A stretch of DNA of 64,000 bases, taken from Rahnella laticis. GTDB taxonomy: Bacteria > Pseudomonadota > Gammaproteobacteria > Enterobacterales > Enterobacteriaceae. Numbering within the stretch: position 1 is the stretch's first letter; the number at the start of each line of letters is the position of its first letter. Under the pieces are notes generated by a model, which was not told the origin of the DNA, ran no database searches, and was given only the letters and a program-made list of their open reading frames with translations. Both the position numbers and the translations under genes were made by a program. Below, piece by piece: positions 39,495 to 46,695 of this stretch. Where the stretch lies: assembly GCF_015644585.1 (NCBI RefSeq), contig NZ_JADOBI010000004.1:310001-374000 (forward strand), written 5' to 3'.

Positions 39495-40550
39495 CTAAGC
39501 CCTGCCCGCGCTGCCAATGCTGTTTTTTCCATTCTTTTTCACGCTCACCAATGCCCGTTCCGCGGCGGCCAGCCACTGGTTGTAATTCTCATGATTTCTG
39601 GATGTCGCCACGCCAATGCTCAGCGAGCACTGAAAACCGGAATCCTGCGACAGGCGAATTTCCGATGTTTTCAGCAGCAGCCGGTATCCGACCGCATACG
39701 CTTCTTCTTCGGAAATGCCCGGCAGTATCACCACAAATTCGTCACCGCCCAGTATGGCCGGAAAATCGTGCTCAGCCGTTTCCTTACGCAAAATAGTCGA
39801 TACCGATCGTAAAACGTAATCGCCCGCTTCGCGTCCAAACAGATCATTCACCATTTTCAAATCATCGACGCCCAGCACCATCAGACAGGCCAGATCCTGC
39901 TTTGAACGTTCAAATTCCAGCATCAGGCGGCGATCGAGCAAACGCCGGTTTGGCAGGCCAAGAAAAGGATCCATCAGCGCCGATTTCTCTAGTTCGTGCT
40001 GCTTATCGCGCAGTTTGCGGGAAATGGAATAATTGGCAGCGCTGAACGCGATAATGTAAATCGTGGAAAGCGGCAGCGTCAGCCATAACGTCCGGTCGCT
40101 CACTTCGGTATAAAGGCTCATCCCGGAAAGCGGCCAGCACAGGATAAATCCGGCACAGTAAAACAGCGCGGCGCGGCGCAGTAATTGCCAGCCACCGGCA
40201 GAAAACCGGTCGGCAACCAGAATAGACGTAATGATCGCAGAAGGCAGCGGACATACGCCCATCAGCGCGACCCACGCGCCACCGGCAATGGCGTCGAACG
40301 CCAGGTTTCTGAATTCAGCCTGATTGGGATGTTTGGAGCGGCGGGAAATCAGCATCGCAACGTGCGGCCAGACAAACGCGTTCAGCACCAGAAAACCCAG
40401 CGGGATCCAGGAAACTTCGCGTTCTAAAAGCACCGAGGCGATAGGGAAAAAACAGAGAAAAGTGCCAAGTATGCGCATTAAGTACATTCGTCGTAAGAAA
40501 CGATCAGAACGCTCACGAACGAGACTTTCATCTGTAGAAAAATATGCCAT
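39495..40550 (-). CDS. MASE2-GGDEF protein with degenerate active site
   Basis: This 351-residue protein shares the architecture of the cyclase at 22.5 kb: an N-terminal MASE2 membrane domain (LNAFVWPHVAML, LAFDAIAGGAWVALMGV) and a GGDEF domain. The GGDEF motif itself is kept (ILGGDEFVVI), but the first metal-binding aspartate is replaced by glycine (LGVDDLKMVND where the usual text is LIDIDHFKxIND), the GH after it is GR, and the inhibitory I-site arginine is alanine. It may be inactive or a c-di-GMP/GTP sensor. Confidence 0.85.
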   Translation of the reverse strand: MAYFSTDESLVRERSDRFLRRMYLMRILGTFLCFFPIASVLLEREVSWIPLGFLVLNAFVWPHVAMLISRRSKHPNQAEFRNLAFDAIAGGAWVALMGVCPLPSAIITSILVADRFSAGGWQLLRRAALFYCAGFILCWPLSGMSLYTEVSDRTLWLTLPLSTIYIIAFSAANYSISRKLRDKQHELEKSALMDPFLGLPNRRLLDRRLMLEFERSKQDLACLMVLGVDDLKMVNDLFGREAGDYVLRSVSTILRKETAEHDFPAILGGDEFVVILPGISEEEAYAVGYRLLLKTSEIRLSQDSGFQCSLSIGVATSRNHENYNQWLAAAERALVSVKKNGKNSIGSAGRA

Positions 40551-40792: not shown

Positions 40793-42979
40793 TTAAAATT
40801 CGAATGTCGAGGAAAGAAGTAACGTTCTTGGCATCCCGACCGCCAGCTGGCCGCTGCCTGCCGCGCTCCAGTAACGTTTATCGGTGACATTATTCACGGT
40901 TGCCTGGAATGTGGCCTTGGTTCCGGCCAGTTTTGTGGTGTAACTCGCGCCCACGTTGTACGTCGTATAGCCCGCCACAAACGCCTGATTCTGGGCATTC
41001 ACCGGCCGTGAACCGACATAATACGCGCCACCATTAACCGCAAGGCCGTCGATGAAATCCAGCTTGTGGTTGATGAAAATGTTCGCCACTTTTTTCGGCG
41101 TATTTTCCGGCGTTTTCCCCAGCAGCTTTTCATTGGTGGTTGAGGTGACTTCCGCACTCAGCAACATGACAGAACCCATCACCGACGTATTTTCCGTGAC
41201 GTCGCCCTGAAGCGAGAATTCCCCGCCGCGGAATCGTGCTTCGCCGTTAAGGGAGTAAATCAGATCATCGCCGGTACTGGCAGACGGTTGTTTAAGCTCG
41301 AAATAAGCCGCCGACGCATAAAGTTCACCGTAAACCCGAGTGCGGATCCCCACTTCTTTCTGTTTGCTGACCGCCGCTTTCAGGGATTCCCCGGCGTTAG
41401 CCGCGGTTGATGGTGCCGTTCCCGCCGATTCCAGACCTTCCACATAACTGGCATACAGGCTGATATCCGGCGTGACTTTATAAAGTACGCTGACGGCTGG
41501 CGTAACCGCGTGAACATCTTCGGAAGCCGCATCAAGCTGCTGGCTGGTATAGCGTCCGTAACGTACAGCGCCGGTCACCTGCCACTGATCGTTGAGCGTG
41601 ATCCAATCCTGCAGGAACAGGCCGCCGTCGCGGATAGTCTGTTCTTTAAAGCTGCGGTCAGTCAGCGTTTTTTTGCTGTTTTTAGCCGCGCGCGTCAGCG
41701 ATGTAATGGTCACCGGGTCATACATATTCTGCGCGGCAGAATACATGTAGGTCTCAAAACTCGGCTGGTAAAGGCGGTTCTGGCTACCGCCAAACAGCAG
41801 TTCATGCTCAACGGAACCGGTATCAAATGTGCCTTTAATTTCCGCCCGGACGTTCTGGTTCAGATAATCCTGGCCGGGCTGATCGGCACCATAAACCGTT
41901 CCCTCGCCGGTCTGCGCATTGTAATTATCAAATACCCACAACCAGCGGTCACGCTTGGTACGCGATTGCCCGGCGCTGACTTTACCCGTCCAGTTATCGG
42001 TCAGGGCATATTCAGCCTGAAGTAAGTGCGTTTCTGCCGAGGAATGTGTGTCTTTTCCTTTCATCGATAACAACTTTTTCGGATCAGGTATCGAAGGAAT
42101 GGTCATGACGCCGTTAACGGCGGTCGGTGTGGCGATTGCTGCCTGCTCGGTAATGCGCGCGCGGATTGACTCATAGTCATATTTGAGTAAAAGCCGGTCC
42201 GTCGCCTGCCAGTCCAGCGCAGCGCTGAACATCCGGCGGTTACCATTATCGCCGTCTATCGGCGTATGGATATTATTGGTGACGGCATTGATACGCACGC
42301 CAAAATTCTTGTCTTCACCAAATCGGTCAGCCAGATCGACGTGCGCGAGGGACGAGCCATTATCATCGGTCGAAAACGTTACCGCTCTGACAGGCTGCTG
42401 CCCCGCCCGTTTGGTCACCATATTCACCACGCCGCCGGGCGCGACAAAACCATAATAAAGTGCCGATGCGCCCTTCAGCACTTCCATCCGCTCTTTATCT
42501 TCCATCGGGATCGGCAGGTTATTATCAAAAGGCAGAACGCCGTTAAACATATAACTTGAGCGGTTATCCAGATTAATACCGCGAACGGAAAGCTGGTCGT
42601 AAGCAATTCCGCTTTGTTGCTGGCGAACAATACCCGCCACATTTCGCAAAGCGTCAAATAAGCCGGTGCCCTGCTGCGCCTGAATAATGTCTTTGGAAAC
42701 GACGCTGACTGACGCGGGAACATCCATCATATCGCGTCCCTGATAAGCCCCTACGTCAGCATAGCCGGGAATATATCCTGAAGGTTCGCTGTAAGAAGTT
42801 CCGTTAACTTCAATGGTGTCATCTTTTTGCTGATTTTTATTATCACTACTTTGAACAGGGTGATTAACGCTATTTTCGCCGGAAAGCGTTTCAGCCAGAC
42901 TTTCCCTGACAGGCAATAAAACAGGAACGCTGGCAATTAACAGCGCCAGCGCATTTTTTTTCATTTTGTTGAAGTTCAT
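40793..42979 (-). CDS. TonB-dependent siderophore receptor
   Basis: This 728-residue outer-membrane receptor has a signal peptide (MKKNALALLIASVPVLLPVR core), a TonB-box-like DDTIEVNG, a plug domain (VPASVSVVSKDIIQAQQ, GINLDNRSSYMFNGVLPFD, EVLKGASALYYGFVAPGGV) and a 22-strand barrel ending in phenylalanine (STFEF), as needed for BAM insertion. The ATG at 42979 follows GGGGA. FhuE/FpvA-like plug features suggest a ferric siderophore, but the ligand is unknown. A Fur-like box lies 195 bases upstream. It is divergent from two leaderless binding-protein genes. Confidence 0.92.
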   Translation of the reverse strand: MNFNKMKKNALALLIASVPVLLPVRESLAETLSGENSVNHPVQSSDNKNQQKDDTIEVNGTSYSEPSGYIPGYADVGAYQGRDMMDVPASVSVVSKDIIQAQQGTGLFDALRNVAGIVRQQQSGIAYDQLSVRGINLDNRSSYMFNGVLPFDNNLPIPMEDKERMEVLKGASALYYGFVAPGGVVNMVTKRAGQQPVRAVTFSTDDNGSSLAHVDLADRFGEDKNFGVRINAVTNNIHTPIDGDNGNRRMFSAALDWQATDRLLLKYDYESIRARITEQAAIATPTAVNGVMTIPSIPDPKKLLSMKGKDTHSSAETHLLQAEYALTDNWTGKVSAGQSRTKRDRWLWVFDNYNAQTGEGTVYGADQPGQDYLNQNVRAEIKGTFDTGSVEHELLFGGSQNRLYQPSFETYMYSAAQNMYDPVTITSLTRAAKNSKKTLTDRSFKEQTIRDGGLFLQDWITLNDQWQVTGAVRYGRYTSQQLDAASEDVHAVTPAVSVLYKVTPDISLYASYVEGLESAGTAPSTAANAGESLKAAVSKQKEVGIRTRVYGELYASAAYFELKQPSASTGDDLIYSLNGEARFRGGEFSLQGDVTENTSVMGSVMLLSAEVTSTTNEKLLGKTPENTPKKVANIFINHKLDFIDGLAVNGGAYYVGSRPVNAQNQAFVAGYTTYNVGASYTTKLAGTKATFQATVNNVTDKRYWSAAGSGQLAVGMPRTLLLSSTFEF

Positions 42980-43173
42980 ACAATCCCCAAAAACATCCGT
43001 AAAAGTATTTAAATCAAAATTAATTTCAGGCCGGCTTTTATTATTCTGTCAGCACATCCGCGCCGACTTTCTCAGGAAGAAAACCTGATTACTGACCCGG
43101 TTATTGCGCGAAACACCGGGCGCCGCTGGCCAGTTCCTGCTCAATCTTACAGGAATCAAAGGGCTCACTAAAT

Positions 43174-43192
43174 TAGAATGATTATCATTCCA
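43174..43192. promoter_or_regulatory. Fur-like box on the TonB receptor side
   Basis: The site contains the palindrome GAATGATTATCATTC (43176-43190) and matches the Fur consensus at about 13 of 19 positions. Confidence 0.65.
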
Positions 43193-43201
43193 TCATACGG
43201 G

Positions 43202-43384
43202 ACTGTAGTAGTAAACGTCAGGCGGTGAAGTGAAAAAAAGAGAAGTCCTGCGGGGTAAAAATCGGGATTTTATTTTTTATATCCCTCTGATATTGAATAT
43301 ATTATTTTCATAATCTGTTCTGCAAAACCCGCACGGGGAAGCCCTGATTTTCCGGCACACCTTCGTAGCGTTGACTACTACAGT
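43202..43384. repeat. 15-bp inverted repeat pair flanking the divergent control region
   Basis: ACTGTAGTAGTAAAC at 43202-43216 recurs in inverted orientation as GTTGACTACTACAGT at 43370-43384 (14 of 15 bases). The copies lie 153 bases apart, each just inside one of the two Fur-like boxes. They may be operators of the RpiR regulator encoded at 45.3 kb. Confidence 0.6.
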
Positions 43385-43410
43385 TACGTACTTCATCATG
43401 ATTTTTAAAA

Positions 43411-43429
43411 GATAATGATAATTCTTCTC
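43411..43429. promoter_or_regulatory. Fur-like box on the binding-protein side
   Basis: GATAATGATAATTCTTCTC matches the Fur consensus at 16 of 19 positions, with a perfect left two thirds. It lies 68 bases before the TTG start of the PstS-like gene at 43498. Confidence 0.7.
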
Positions 43430-43497
43430 ATGCAAAATCGGGAAGAGTTCCACACGATCGCGCAAGTTTCAAAGACTCAGCCAGAAGGAATAACAGA

Positions 43498-44343
43498 TTG
43501 AACCCGGACAGCTCCCTGCCCGCTCCAGCGCAGTACCCCACTGAAAAGAAAAGCGTTATCAGAATTACCGCAAAGCCAGAACTCGCGCCGCTGGTTGATA
43601 AAATCATTACGGCATTCCGTCGCGCTCACCCTGATATTGCAGTCGCCGCCACTTTTTGCCATGACGATGCCGCGTTTGCCTTTCTGATTAACCGTCGTGC
43701 CACGATGGCGCTGATTGATAGAGAAATTACGCCCACGGAGTCCGTGCCGTATAAAAAGCAGCGCGGCTCAGCACCGTTTTCTGTGAAGCTTGCGGTCAGT
43801 CCGGCAACGCCAGCCGTGTACGTGCATCACAGTAATTCGCTGACTGAAATTTCGGTGACCCAGCTTTCACAGATTTTCACGCGCGGAAATGCACAGGGTG
43901 ATTTTTCGAACTGGGGACAACTCCTTACGTCTTCTCACGATGCCAGTATTCTGCCGCTGAGCCTGCCGGAAGACAGCGCCCTTCAGGTGTTCTTACAAAA
44001 GCATTTATTTGCCGGACGTGAGCTGACTGCGCGGACTGAATATGTGGCGGATTCGGCCACGCTTCTGGCGCGGCTTGAGAATACGCCAGACGGCATTGGC
44101 ATTGCTGACACCGCCGGAGAACATCCGCTTTTACGTAAAGTGCCTCTGCGCGGTCAGGCGCGCGACCCGCTTACCCGTTTTCTGCATCTTTATCTGCCCG
44201 CCGGTGAAGGCCCCGACGCACATAAACTGGCCGGTTTCCTGCTTTCCGATGAAGGTCAGGCAGTTATCGCAGATACAACCTGTCTGCCTCTGGAACCTGC
44301 TGAACTCGCTCAGCAGCGTGCAATAATCGCGGTGCATTCATGA
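43498..44343 (+). CDS. PstS-like substrate-binding-fold protein without signal peptide (copy 1)
   Basis: The TTG at 43498 follows AGAAGGAATAACA and gives 281 residues. The fold resembles the PstS/PBP-like domain (SVIRITAKPELAPLVDKIIT, AVYVHHSNSLTEISVTQLSQ, GFLLSDEGQAVIAD) but it begins within 20 residues of the mature-protein start of PstS and has no signal peptide; no alternative upstream start adds one. It overlaps copy 2 by 4 bases (ATGA). The protein is therefore predicted to be cytosolic, unlike transport-binding proteins. A Fur-like box precedes it. The function is not known. Confidence 0.75.
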   Translation: MNPDSSLPAPAQYPTEKKSVIRITAKPELAPLVDKIITAFRRAHPDIAVAATFCHDDAAFAFLINRRATMALIDREITPTESVPYKKQRGSAPFSVKLAVSPATPAVYVHHSNSLTEISVTQLSQIFTRGNAQGDFSNWGQLLTSSHDASILPLSLPEDSALQVFLQKHLFAGRELTARTEYVADSATLLARLENTPDGIGIADTAGEHPLLRKVPLRGQARDPLTRFLHLYLPAGEGPDAHKLAGFLLSDEGQAVIADTTCLPLEPAELAQQRAIIAVHS

Positions 44344-45260
44344 ATTCAAACACACTTAATCTCCCGCTGCCGGTTGTCGGAAATGACGGCATGGCTTCTC
44401 TGGTTCTTCCGTGGTGCGCACTTTTTTGCGAAGCGAATCCGGCAATTTCTTTCGACTGCACGCTGGAAGGCTCGTCCACGGCGATTATGGCACTGGCGGC
44501 TGACGCCAGCTGGCTGGCACCGATGTCACGCGCGCCATGGCCTCATGAACTGGCAGCTTTTGAGCGCGTAAAAGGCTACCGGCCAACGGAAATCCATGTC
44601 GGATATACCGGCCACGGGCCGCGTCCGGAAGCCAAAAGTCCGCCTGCGATTTATGTTCACCGCGATAATCCTTTGCCGGGGCTGACCATGGCGCAGCTGG
44701 CCTCGGTTTTCTCTTCAGGGCATAGCAGCGGAGATATCACTGACTGGCAACAACTGGGGCTGGAAGGCAAATGGCACAACCGGCGCATTCATCTTTATGG
44801 CCTGCGGGATAACGGGAAATACGCTACCGCATTCCGGCACGCACATCTGGCCGGTCGTCATTATCCTGCGCATTATGAAGGTCTCGCCGATCGCCGCGCC
44901 GTGATTGAAGCCTTGGCGCAAGACCCGTTCGGGGCGGGCTGTCTGGGCTGGTGCAACGCGGCACTGTTCTCTGACGACGTGCGTATTTTGCCGCTGGCCT
45001 CAGAAGCAAATACCGCATTTTATTCGCCGGATTTAGTCAATGTGGCGCAGGGGAATTATCCGCTTTCAAGCTATGTTTCGCTCTTCTTTGACCTGCCGCC
45101 GGGAGCCACGCTGGATCCGCTGGTTAAAGCCTGGCTGGAAATGGCGCTGTCTGATGCCGGACAAGCTATTGTGGCCGCGCAAACTCACAGCCCGGAAGGA
45201 TACGTACCGCTTGAACCGTCAATGCTGGCTCATCAGCGGCAAAGACTGGCAAGCCTGTAA
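44340..45260 (+). CDS. PstS-like substrate-binding-fold protein without signal peptide (copy 2)
   Basis: This 306-residue product is a diverged tandem paralogue of the preceding gene: compare AIYVHRDNPLPGLTMAQLAS and SGDITDWQQLGL with the matching segments of copy 1. It also lacks a recognisable signal peptide, although a short hydrophobic patch (MASLVLPWCALF) lies near residue 18. It has several cysteines (CALFC, AGCLGWCNA). It is translationally coupled to copy 1 and followed by an RpiR regulator 57 bases on. It could bind a phospho-ligand or iron-related metabolite in the cytosol; this is inference. Confidence 0.75.
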   Translation: MNSNTLNLPLPVVGNDGMASLVLPWCALFCEANPAISFDCTLEGSSTAIMALAADASWLAPMSRAPWPHELAAFERVKGYRPTEIHVGYTGHGPRPEAKSPPAIYVHRDNPLPGLTMAQLASVFSSGHSSGDITDWQQLGLEGKWHNRRIHLYGLRDNGKYATAFRHAHLAGRHYPAHYEGLADRRAVIEALAQDPFGAGCLGWCNAALFSDDVRILPLASEANTAFYSPDLVNVAQGNYPLSSYVSLFFDLPPGATLDPLVKAWLEMALSDAGQAIVAAQTHSPEGYVPLEPSMLAHQRQRLASL

Positions 45261-45317
45261 GGCGCTCCCGAAGTACACTGTAAAAAATGGCAGCAATGTG
45301 AATGAACAGGCGTAACT

Positions 45318-46223
45318 GTGAAAAACCTGAAGACTAAACCCAACCGCTCCGGCCCGGATCTCTACGGCGAACGTTTCCGCCTGCGTAAAAACCAGTTATC
45401 ACCGAGCCTGTTTGCCGTCGCGCAGTATATTCATACTCACCGGGGCGCAGTGCTGGATAAAACCGCCATGGAAATCGCAGCAGATACCCAAAGCTCGGAT
45501 GCTACGGTCGTGCGTGCCATTCAGGCGCTGGGATTTTCCGGCCTGCGCGATCTGAAAAATGTGCTGGCCAGTTATCTCGGGGAGACGCTGACGTCGTCGG
45601 CAAAGATGGCAACAACGGTGAGTTCCCTGACGCCGGATACCAATTCCAGCATTGATTTCGTGCTCGAGGGCTACCTTTATACCTGCCAGATGCTGTCGGA
45701 GGAGAAGAACCGGCTGGCGCTTTCGCGTGCCAACGCGTTGTTGCAGGCCGCCGACCGGATAGCCATTTTTGGCATCGGGGCTTCCTCGCTGCTGGCGGAA
45801 TATACCGCCCGTCTGTTCAACCGTAACGGGACGCCCGCATATGTGCTTAACCGCACCGGCGCGTCGCTGAGTGAGCAACTGATCGGCATGCGTCCGGGCG
45901 ATGTGCTGATTATGATGGCGCAACGCAGCGCCCATCGGGAAGGTGTCACAACGCTGGCAGAAGCCAAACGCCTGGGGATTTCAACTATTTTACTGACCGG
46001 CTCGGCCGAATCCGTTTTTATCAAAGAAGCGGACTGCGTGGTGTTTATTCCTCGCAGCGCAGATGCGGAAAAAATCCCCGTCCACGGCACGTCTGTCATT
46101 TGCCTTGAAATTCTGGTGCTGGCGCTGGCCGCCTCTTCACCAAAAGTCCCGCTTCAGACCATGAACCGGCTTTATGAGCTGAGTAATTCCATGACTAAAC
46201 CCCGCAAAAATCCGCGCGGATGA
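45318..46223 (+). CDS. MurR/RpiR-family regulator (HTH plus SIS domain)
   Basis: The GTG at 45318 gives 301 residues. The N-terminal 80 residues are an RpiR helix-turn-helix (LDKTAMEIAADTQSSDATVV, then RAIQALGFSGLRDLKNVLAS) and the rest a SIS sugar-phosphate-binding domain (RIAIFGIGASSLLAEYTARL, GDVLIMMAQRSAHREGVTTL). Such regulators sense phosphosugars. It lies at the end of the operon with the two PstS-like genes, so it may control the divergent promoters and bind the 15-bp inverted repeats. Confidence 0.88.
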   Translation: MKNLKTKPNRSGPDLYGERFRLRKNQLSPSLFAVAQYIHTHRGAVLDKTAMEIAADTQSSDATVVRAIQALGFSGLRDLKNVLASYLGETLTSSAKMATTVSSLTPDTNSSIDFVLEGYLYTCQMLSEEKNRLALSRANALLQAADRIAIFGIGASSLLAEYTARLFNRNGTPAYVLNRTGASLSEQLIGMRPGDVLIMMAQRSAHREGVTTLAEAKRLGISTILLTGSAESVFIKEADCVVFIPRSADAEKIPVHGTSVICLEILVLALAASSPKVPLQTMNRLYELSNSMTKPRKNPRG

Positions 46224-46287: not shown

Positions 46288-46695
46288 TCACTTCTGATAC
46301 TGAGCGTCTGTCACTTTTTCCAGCCACTCAACCGGGCTGCCGTTAAGAGATTCGGCAATCGCAATGTGGGTCATTGCATTTTCCGGCGTCGCACCGTGCC
46401 AGTGTTTAACCCCTTCAGGGATCCACACGATATCGCCGACATTCATTTCGCGAATTTCACCGCCCTCTTCCTGCAACCACCCACGGCCGTGAGTGATGAT
46501 CAGCGTCTGGCCCAGCGGATGCGTGTGCCATGCCGTGCGCGCGCCCGGTTCAAACGTCACGGTTGCGCCGCCAACACGCGCAGATTCAGTACCGCTGAAC
46601 GGCGCATCGATGCGCACTTTGCCGGTAAAATAGCTTTCCGGGCCATTCTGCGAAGGAACAGAACCGCTTTTGGTAATTCTCATTTTGTCAGACAT
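46288..46695 (-). CDS. Small cupin of the (R)-mandelonitrile-lyase-like group
   Basis: This 135-residue single-domain cupin carries [20 protein letters not shown] followed by [14 protein letters not shown] (two histidines, one glutamine) and [19 protein letters not shown]. These metal-site motifs are typical of small Mn-binding cupins often annotated as cupin or mandelonitrile-lyase-like proteins. A cyanogenic role is not implied; many homologues have no known substrate. Confidence 0.83.

Follow-up and report, generated by a model that had tools for sequence, protein, structure and literature searches.

A variant FitR-type iron locus of Rahnella laticis with a leaderless PstS-like protein pair, possibly a cytosolic ligand binder, in the importer slot

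What might two binding proteins of a periplasmic kind do in an iron locus when neither of them carries an export signal? The question is raised by four genes in a 64,000-nucleotide (nt) stretch of the Rahnella laticis genome (contig NZ_JADOBI010000004.1, positions 310,001 to 374,000; the whole stretch is called the window below, and coordinates refer to it). A gene for a TonB-dependent receptor is divergent there from an operon encoding two PstS-like proteins, P1 and P2, followed by an RpiR-type regulator. As judged from sequence comparison, the locus is a variant of the described FitR-type iron system. The explanation preferred here, with a little less than even confidence, is that of a FitR-regulated type of iron-carrier cassette. 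In it, a leaderless, PstS-derived pair stands where relatives have an ATP-binding cassette (ABC) importer and would serve as a cytosolic ligand binder for the repressor. This explanation starts from features read in the sequences themselves, namely the gene order, the absence of leaders, the empty sites in related genomes, the FitR-adjacent clade of the regulator and the promoter element common to both sides.

The receptor is of the siderophore type and is composed of 728 amino acids (40793..42979, minus strand), with the Plug and beta-barrel domains of Pfam and a TIGR01783 score of 345.6 bits (cut-off 223.5). On the opposite strand, 518 nt away, lies the gene for P1, a diverged, leaderless PstS-like protein of 281 amino acids with a TTG start (43498..44343, plus strand; PF12849), and this is followed by P2, also PstS-like and leaderless, with 306 amino acids (44340..45260, plus strand; PF12849), and by the FitR-like regulator of 301 amino acids with HTH_6 and SIS domains in Pfam (45318..46223, plus strand). 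Since P1 and P2 share 4 nt of coding sequence and only 57 nt separate P2 from the regulator, the arrangement suggests a single transcript for the three genes. The first-pass annotation, made from the sequence alone, had described a receptor facing a tandem PstS-like pair and then an RpiR regulator, with no importer at hand; all four genes are found at these positions and strands with agreeing Pfam assignments, and no permease or ATPase gene is present between receptor and regulator. Its further statement that no described system has this set does not hold, as the divergent receptor, the promoters and the operon with the regulator last match the fit locus of E. coli.

In E. coli, FitR is a repressor of fitA and fitB that binds the DNA between them and acts independently of Fur (PMC2593036). 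That 2008 paper left the exact FitR site to later work; among the open-licence papers listed in our searches for FitR, it is the only one that treats the protein. The E. coli locus used for comparison (L216) is the published fit, since 16 of 16 tested fit primers, of 18 printed in PMC2593036, map to it with 0-2 mismatches once the cloning tails are removed. The two loci, fit being arranged as fitA and fitBCDE-fitR, have in common a TonB receptor gene divergent from an operon that ends in a FitR-family regulator, and a pair of TTKACTACTACA elements in the intergenic DNA; fit is repressed by Fur, and the window carries Fur-like boxes at the sequence level. Unlike fit, the window has no FitBCDE ABC importer, its receptor is not of the FitA type (26% identity), and its regulator belongs to a separate clade. 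This regulator is 57% identical to E. coli FitR. In a quick tree, which warns of long branches, L217 and L031 (see below) among them, a clade of five regulators including that of the window is split from 58 other rows of the FitR family with a support of 99 in the approximate likelihood ratio test (SH-aLRT). Because of this separate clade, the regulator is taken, on sequence, as FitR-like rather than FitR itself.

At E <= 1e-65, such regulators were found at 54 places in 52 of the 392 genomes of the family; the survey that follows covers 50 of these loci. Homologues of FitB, FitC and FitD accompany the regulator in 42 of the 50, and 39 of these 42 also have a detected receptor gene. Five further loci combine a receptor with a binding protein of the SBP2 type and have no FitBCD set, and three are of other composition (L166, L210 and L212). 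In the window, P1-P2 occupy the slot held by FitBCD-type importer genes in related loci. The FitBCD-type kind is also the one carried by E. coli, where a near-match search with the DNA of a neighbour gave 1840 of 5426 genomes.

Both divergent promoters contain TTKACTACTACAG, which overlaps a -35-like hexamer situated 17 nt from a -10-like one. The receptor promoter (43187..43215, minus strand) reads TTTACT, 17 nt, TGGAAT and contains TTTACTACTACAG; the promoter of P1, P2 and the regulator (43371..43399, plus strand) reads TTGACT, 17 nt, CATCAT and contains TTGACTACTACAG. Each is also a candidate operator of the regulator, and an inverted pair of 22 nt, 86% complementary, is located at 43196-43217 and 43369-43390. 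Just two copies of TTKACTACTACAG occur in the 5.7-Mb genome, both at this locus, and a reversed control gave none. The element was then compared among the genomes that carry both P1 and P2, which besides the window are Rahnella sp. AA (L003), G043 from another genus (L031) and G087 (L030). TTKACTACTACA is kept on both sides in L003 and L031 and on the P1 side in L030, and both copies are also found in the fit intergenic region of E. coli. The TTTACTACTACA of the receptor promoter is kept in L003, L031 and FitR-type loci, and the TTGACTACTACA of the operon promoter is also present in L003, L031, L030 and on the fitB side of E. coli fit, while TTTACTACTAC was seen at all six paralogous loci read.

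The same core was counted in the 50 surveyed loci, which had been picked by regulator and not by motif. All 87 exact T[TG]ACTACTAC sites fall within the 700 bp upstream of the receptor gene (fitB in loci without a detected receptor), and none falls in the other 781 kb of the 816 kb covered. There are at least two copies in 39 loci, one in nine and none in two (L166 and L204). FitR thereby gains a specific candidate operator, TTKACTACTACA, common to both divergent promoters and standing upstream of the receptor or the operon in 48 of the 50 FitR-type loci. As for Fur, the first-pass annotation had noticed Fur-like boxes on both sides, and scoring bears this out. One of them overlaps the -10-like hexamer of the receptor (43174..43192, minus strand) and agrees with the consensus at 14 of 19 positions; the other is downstream of the operon promoter (43411..43429, plus strand), agrees at 16 of 19 and is the top site in the 64-kb window.

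In the same genome (L097) and in Pantoea (L217 and L218), there are FitR-type loci that lack a FitBCD set and combine their receptor with a different binding protein. They share with the window the FitR-family regulator. Of 13 loci of this kind, 11 have the same element ahead of the receptor; in L217, the element is present only as a variant. Unlike P1 and P2, their binder belongs to another family (PF01497, tested for L097 only) and has an N-terminus that looks like a leader by eye. In L097 (C12:416001-436000), a second regulator of the FitR type adjoins a TonB receptor and the PF01497 binder, with no FitBCD and the same element, and cross-talk between this regulator and that of the window is possible. 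At L217 (6578-6985), the close regulator of Pantoea SOD02 adjoins export genes of the FetB type, and the variant element has CTACTACTACA.

The next question is whether P1 and P2 are indeed cytosolic. Leader-like N-termini are absent from both proteins in all four genomes that have the pair, as judged by hydropathy and reading by eye, with no dedicated predictor. By the same test, leaders are carried by 10 of 10 phoBR-linked PstS paralogues taken as controls from 18 fetched, and by three relatives, namely a fused protein of G1270 and two Novosphingobium proteins; by this measure, P1 and P2 lack the export signal of a PstS-type protein. The best 12-residue hydropathy of P2 (1.97) is near that of the lowest control (1.95), and this patch (residues 19-30) lies within the part of P2, starting at residue 10, that can be aligned with the fold of mature PstS. 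From the promoter onward, no 12-residue stretch above 1.9, a threshold of our own choice, was found in any frame at the three loci tested. A missed upstream leader was rejected on these two tests, and the first-pass claim that neither protein has a signal peptide stands. A binding-protein pair of a periplasmic kind is accordingly present, intact and without an export signal, in an iron locus. It might still be supposed that P1 and P2 act outside the cytosol, through an unrecognised export route or a missed start, as periplasmic binders for the receptor. The three leader-bearing relatives adjoin TonB receptor genes, and the nearest fused relative is predicted to be exported by its leader, which would suit such a role; the consistent absence of leaders, the lack of a hydrophobic stretch upstream, the overlap of P2 with P1 and the start of the PstS match at residue 10 of P2 speak against it, and we regard export as unlikely.

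The origin of the pair can be traced in part through its family. P1 and P2 score 44.1 and 37.4 bits with PBP_like_2 (PF12849; curated cut-off 27) and 46.8 and 81.9 bits with the PstS-family model TIGR02136 of NCBIfam, both far under the cut-off of 206.6. They are of the same family as PstS (4omb, 4pqj) over nearly their full length, and P2 matches 4pqj at E 4.7e-34 and 4omb at E 7.6e-34, both PstS structures of P. aeruginosa. Unlike PstS, they have no leader and no pstCAB nearby. In PstS, the GSST and SGT stretches provide phosphate-binding residues. P2 retains GSST, and the GRNSVSGTY stretch of PstS has become GLRDNGKY; it is lost in P1, which retains neither ligand stretch. With this second stretch changed in P2 and neither one kept in P1, inorganic phosphate is an unlikely ligand. 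P2 also has a conserved insert with HGPR where PstS has the AVDAL stretch. Among the loci compared for it, this signature was found only in the four P2 proteins and the two Novosphingobium proteins; the G1270 protein shows GCGQR as a variant.

The fused protein of G1270 (L239, 8118-10043) is composed of 642 amino acids and carries a leader; its gene starts 11 nt downstream of one for a TonB receptor. Each half matches PBP_like_2, and the C half is 42% identical to P2. In the tree, P1 groups with the N half of G1270 (support 99/98), P2 groups weakly with three C halves, those of G1270 and of the two Novosphingobium proteins (80/74), and 10 phoBR-linked PstS form a separate clade (100/100); the N parts of the two Novosphingobium proteins were left out. 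The G1270 protein differs from the pair in being a single polypeptide with a leader, and no match to a FitR-type regulator was found in the 19 kb fetched. The Novosphingobium proteins, encoded on megaplasmids (L050 and L051), likewise have a C part resembling P2 (38% identity, HGPR) and a TonB receptor gene nearby; unlike P1 and P2, they have a leader and a short N part, and the fetched stretch gave no FitR-type regulator match. A P1-like N half was sought in one of them and rejected (E 0.17 against P1). Between the receptor and the P2-like protein of Novosphingobium sp. RL4, there is a gene for a 242-amino-acid product whose start resembles a leader and which has no match in Pfam (L050, 7718-8446). 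The simplest reading is that P1 and P2 arose from an exported tandem binder by splitting and leader loss, the direction being inferred; leader loss is the likely history because the P1-like and P2-like halves are fused in G1270, in a protein that has a leader and is encoded downstream of a TonB receptor.

The cassette is rare. Of 392 genomes of the family, 3 have P2 at E <= 1e-45, and of 14 genomes of the genus, 2 have a close regulator; both counts include the genome of the window. A contig search for related loci gave three, of which only L003 was used here. The same four genes, in the same order, are present in Rahnella sp. AA, with identities of 93% for the receptor, 58% for P1, 79% for P2 and 92% for the regulator, and in G043, where the values are 71-73, 39-41, 63 and 57-61%, depending on the stretch compared. 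The linkage to the receptor, which the first-pass annotation had proposed to check in related genomes, is conserved in these two genomes. In five of five congeners, picked from genomes without a close regulator, the site is empty: the diguanylate cyclase gene directly adjoins the cupin gene, and receptor, P1, P2 and regulator gave no match in the 13-kb stretches examined. Because of these empty sites, the cassette is a discrete unit of presence and absence. In G087, P1 and P2 stand beside a 53-residue receptor remnant, with no regulator adjacent and a 70%-identical regulator elsewhere in the genome, and the locus looks to be in decay. The stretch from promoter to P1 is longer there (L030, 7795-10335).

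The dN/dS ratio (nonsynonymous to synonymous substitution) between the window and Rahnella sp. AA is 0.158 for P1, 0.116 for P2, 0.035 for the receptor, 0.041 for the regulator and 0.052 and 0.046 for the flanks; these values come from one genome pair with dS of 1.1-2.1 and are rough. P1 and P2 are under purifying selection and evolve faster than their neighbours. This bears on the explanation that the pair is a relic, disabled by leader loss and kept through its operon position before the regulator. Ratios above those of the neighbours, highest in P1, the loss of both PstS ligand stretches from P1 and the apparent decay in G087 are in its favour. The frames are nevertheless open in four genomes, and the ratios, for the one pair measured and at high synonymous distance, are well under 1, so that the chance of a mere relic seems small. 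The pair might also act in the cytosol in the manner of an enzyme or as a store, helping to free iron from its carrier and having no role in gene control, as its position in place of the importer in an iron locus would allow; PBP_like_2 is the sole match above cut-off, no catalytic family is recognised, and this proposal has a similarly small chance.

In the preferred explanation, that of a cytosolic ligand binder for the repressor, the two promoters would be repressed by the regulator, acting at TTKACTACTACA, and by Fur, acting at its boxes. The ferric carrier would enter through the receptor and pass onward by an importer encoded elsewhere in the genome, or would give up its iron in the periplasm. 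P1 and P2, which probably descend from a tandem binder that was exported, would form a cytosolic two-part binder. By holding the ligand that comes in, or a ligand derived from it, this binder would set the amount that reaches the co-transcribed FitR-like repressor, by sensing or buffering. This ligand-holding step acting on the repressor is the weakest of the proposal; a function of P1-P2 as cytosolic sensors or carriers, also suggested in the first-pass annotation, is possible. More doubtful is the specific version in which a once-periplasmic pair serving the receptor moved to the cytosol and forms, as a PstS-type heterodimer, a ligand-sensing module with the FitR-like SIS repressor. Were the pair to sense its ligand in the cytosol, this way of sensing iron carriers would differ from surface signalling of the FecIR type, which some other receptors employ.

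Several observations weigh against the cytosolic ligand binder. The receptor is only 26% identical to FitA, and L166 and L204 have no element among the 50 loci. The leader-bearing relatives imply that a cytosolic role needs a change of compartment, which is judged by hydropathy. Only a single true two-domain fusion, that of G1270, was found, and its N half, although grouped with P1 in the tree, gives a better match with P2 (32%, 5e-44) than with P1 (26%, 1e-28); the N part of the one Novosphingobium protein tested does not match P1. In G087, the pair is found without an intact receptor or an adjacent regulator. Weaker constraint on P1 and P2 is possible as well, because they evolve faster than their neighbours.

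The first-pass annotation had linked iron supply to a phosphosugar signal, and this part is not supported. The regulator has the HTH_6 and SIS domains of phosphosugar-sensing RpiR proteins. The S-x-S-G-x-T loop of SIS is a phosphate loop, and the regulator of the window has AQRSAHRE at this place, compared with SSSGSTKE in 4ivn, a sugar-phosphate-sensing NanR, and SQSGRSKD in 8k3b. All 12 aligned FitR-family proteins have the Q, H, E and G of QxxxHxEG unchanged. Phosphosugar sensing was rejected on this replacement of the phosphate loop, which speaks against ordinary phosphosugar sensing and names no ligand. As 3sho, a solved RpiR protein, is also without the S-G-x-T loop, the regulator of the window is not alone in having lost it, and the loss does not tell what is sensed.

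Other PstS-like matches were set apart from this system. A broad profile search drew ordinary PstS in 250 of 394 genomes, which were excluded from the counts, and searches of the class and phylum gave mostly PstS-like matches, G1270 being the one locus from them that was analysed further. Single PstS-like matches in Enterobacteriaceae were rejected as the same system, since 10 of the 18 are in the tree and form the separate 100/100 clade. In these 18 loci (L032-L049, of 20 neighbourhoods), the arrangement, judged from the sizes and order of open reading frames alone, resembles phoB-phoR-PstS-brnQ. TonB receptor, PstS-like and PepSY genes are clustered on plasmids of Paraburkholderia and Azoarcus (L134 and L136). 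The cassette is flanked by genes for a MASE2-GGDEF diguanylate cyclase (39495-40550) and a cupin scored as (R)-mandelonitrile lyase (46288-46695). Its four genes have a G+C content of 52.3-57.2%, and since this is near that of the window (52.7%), composition does not flag the cassette as foreign.

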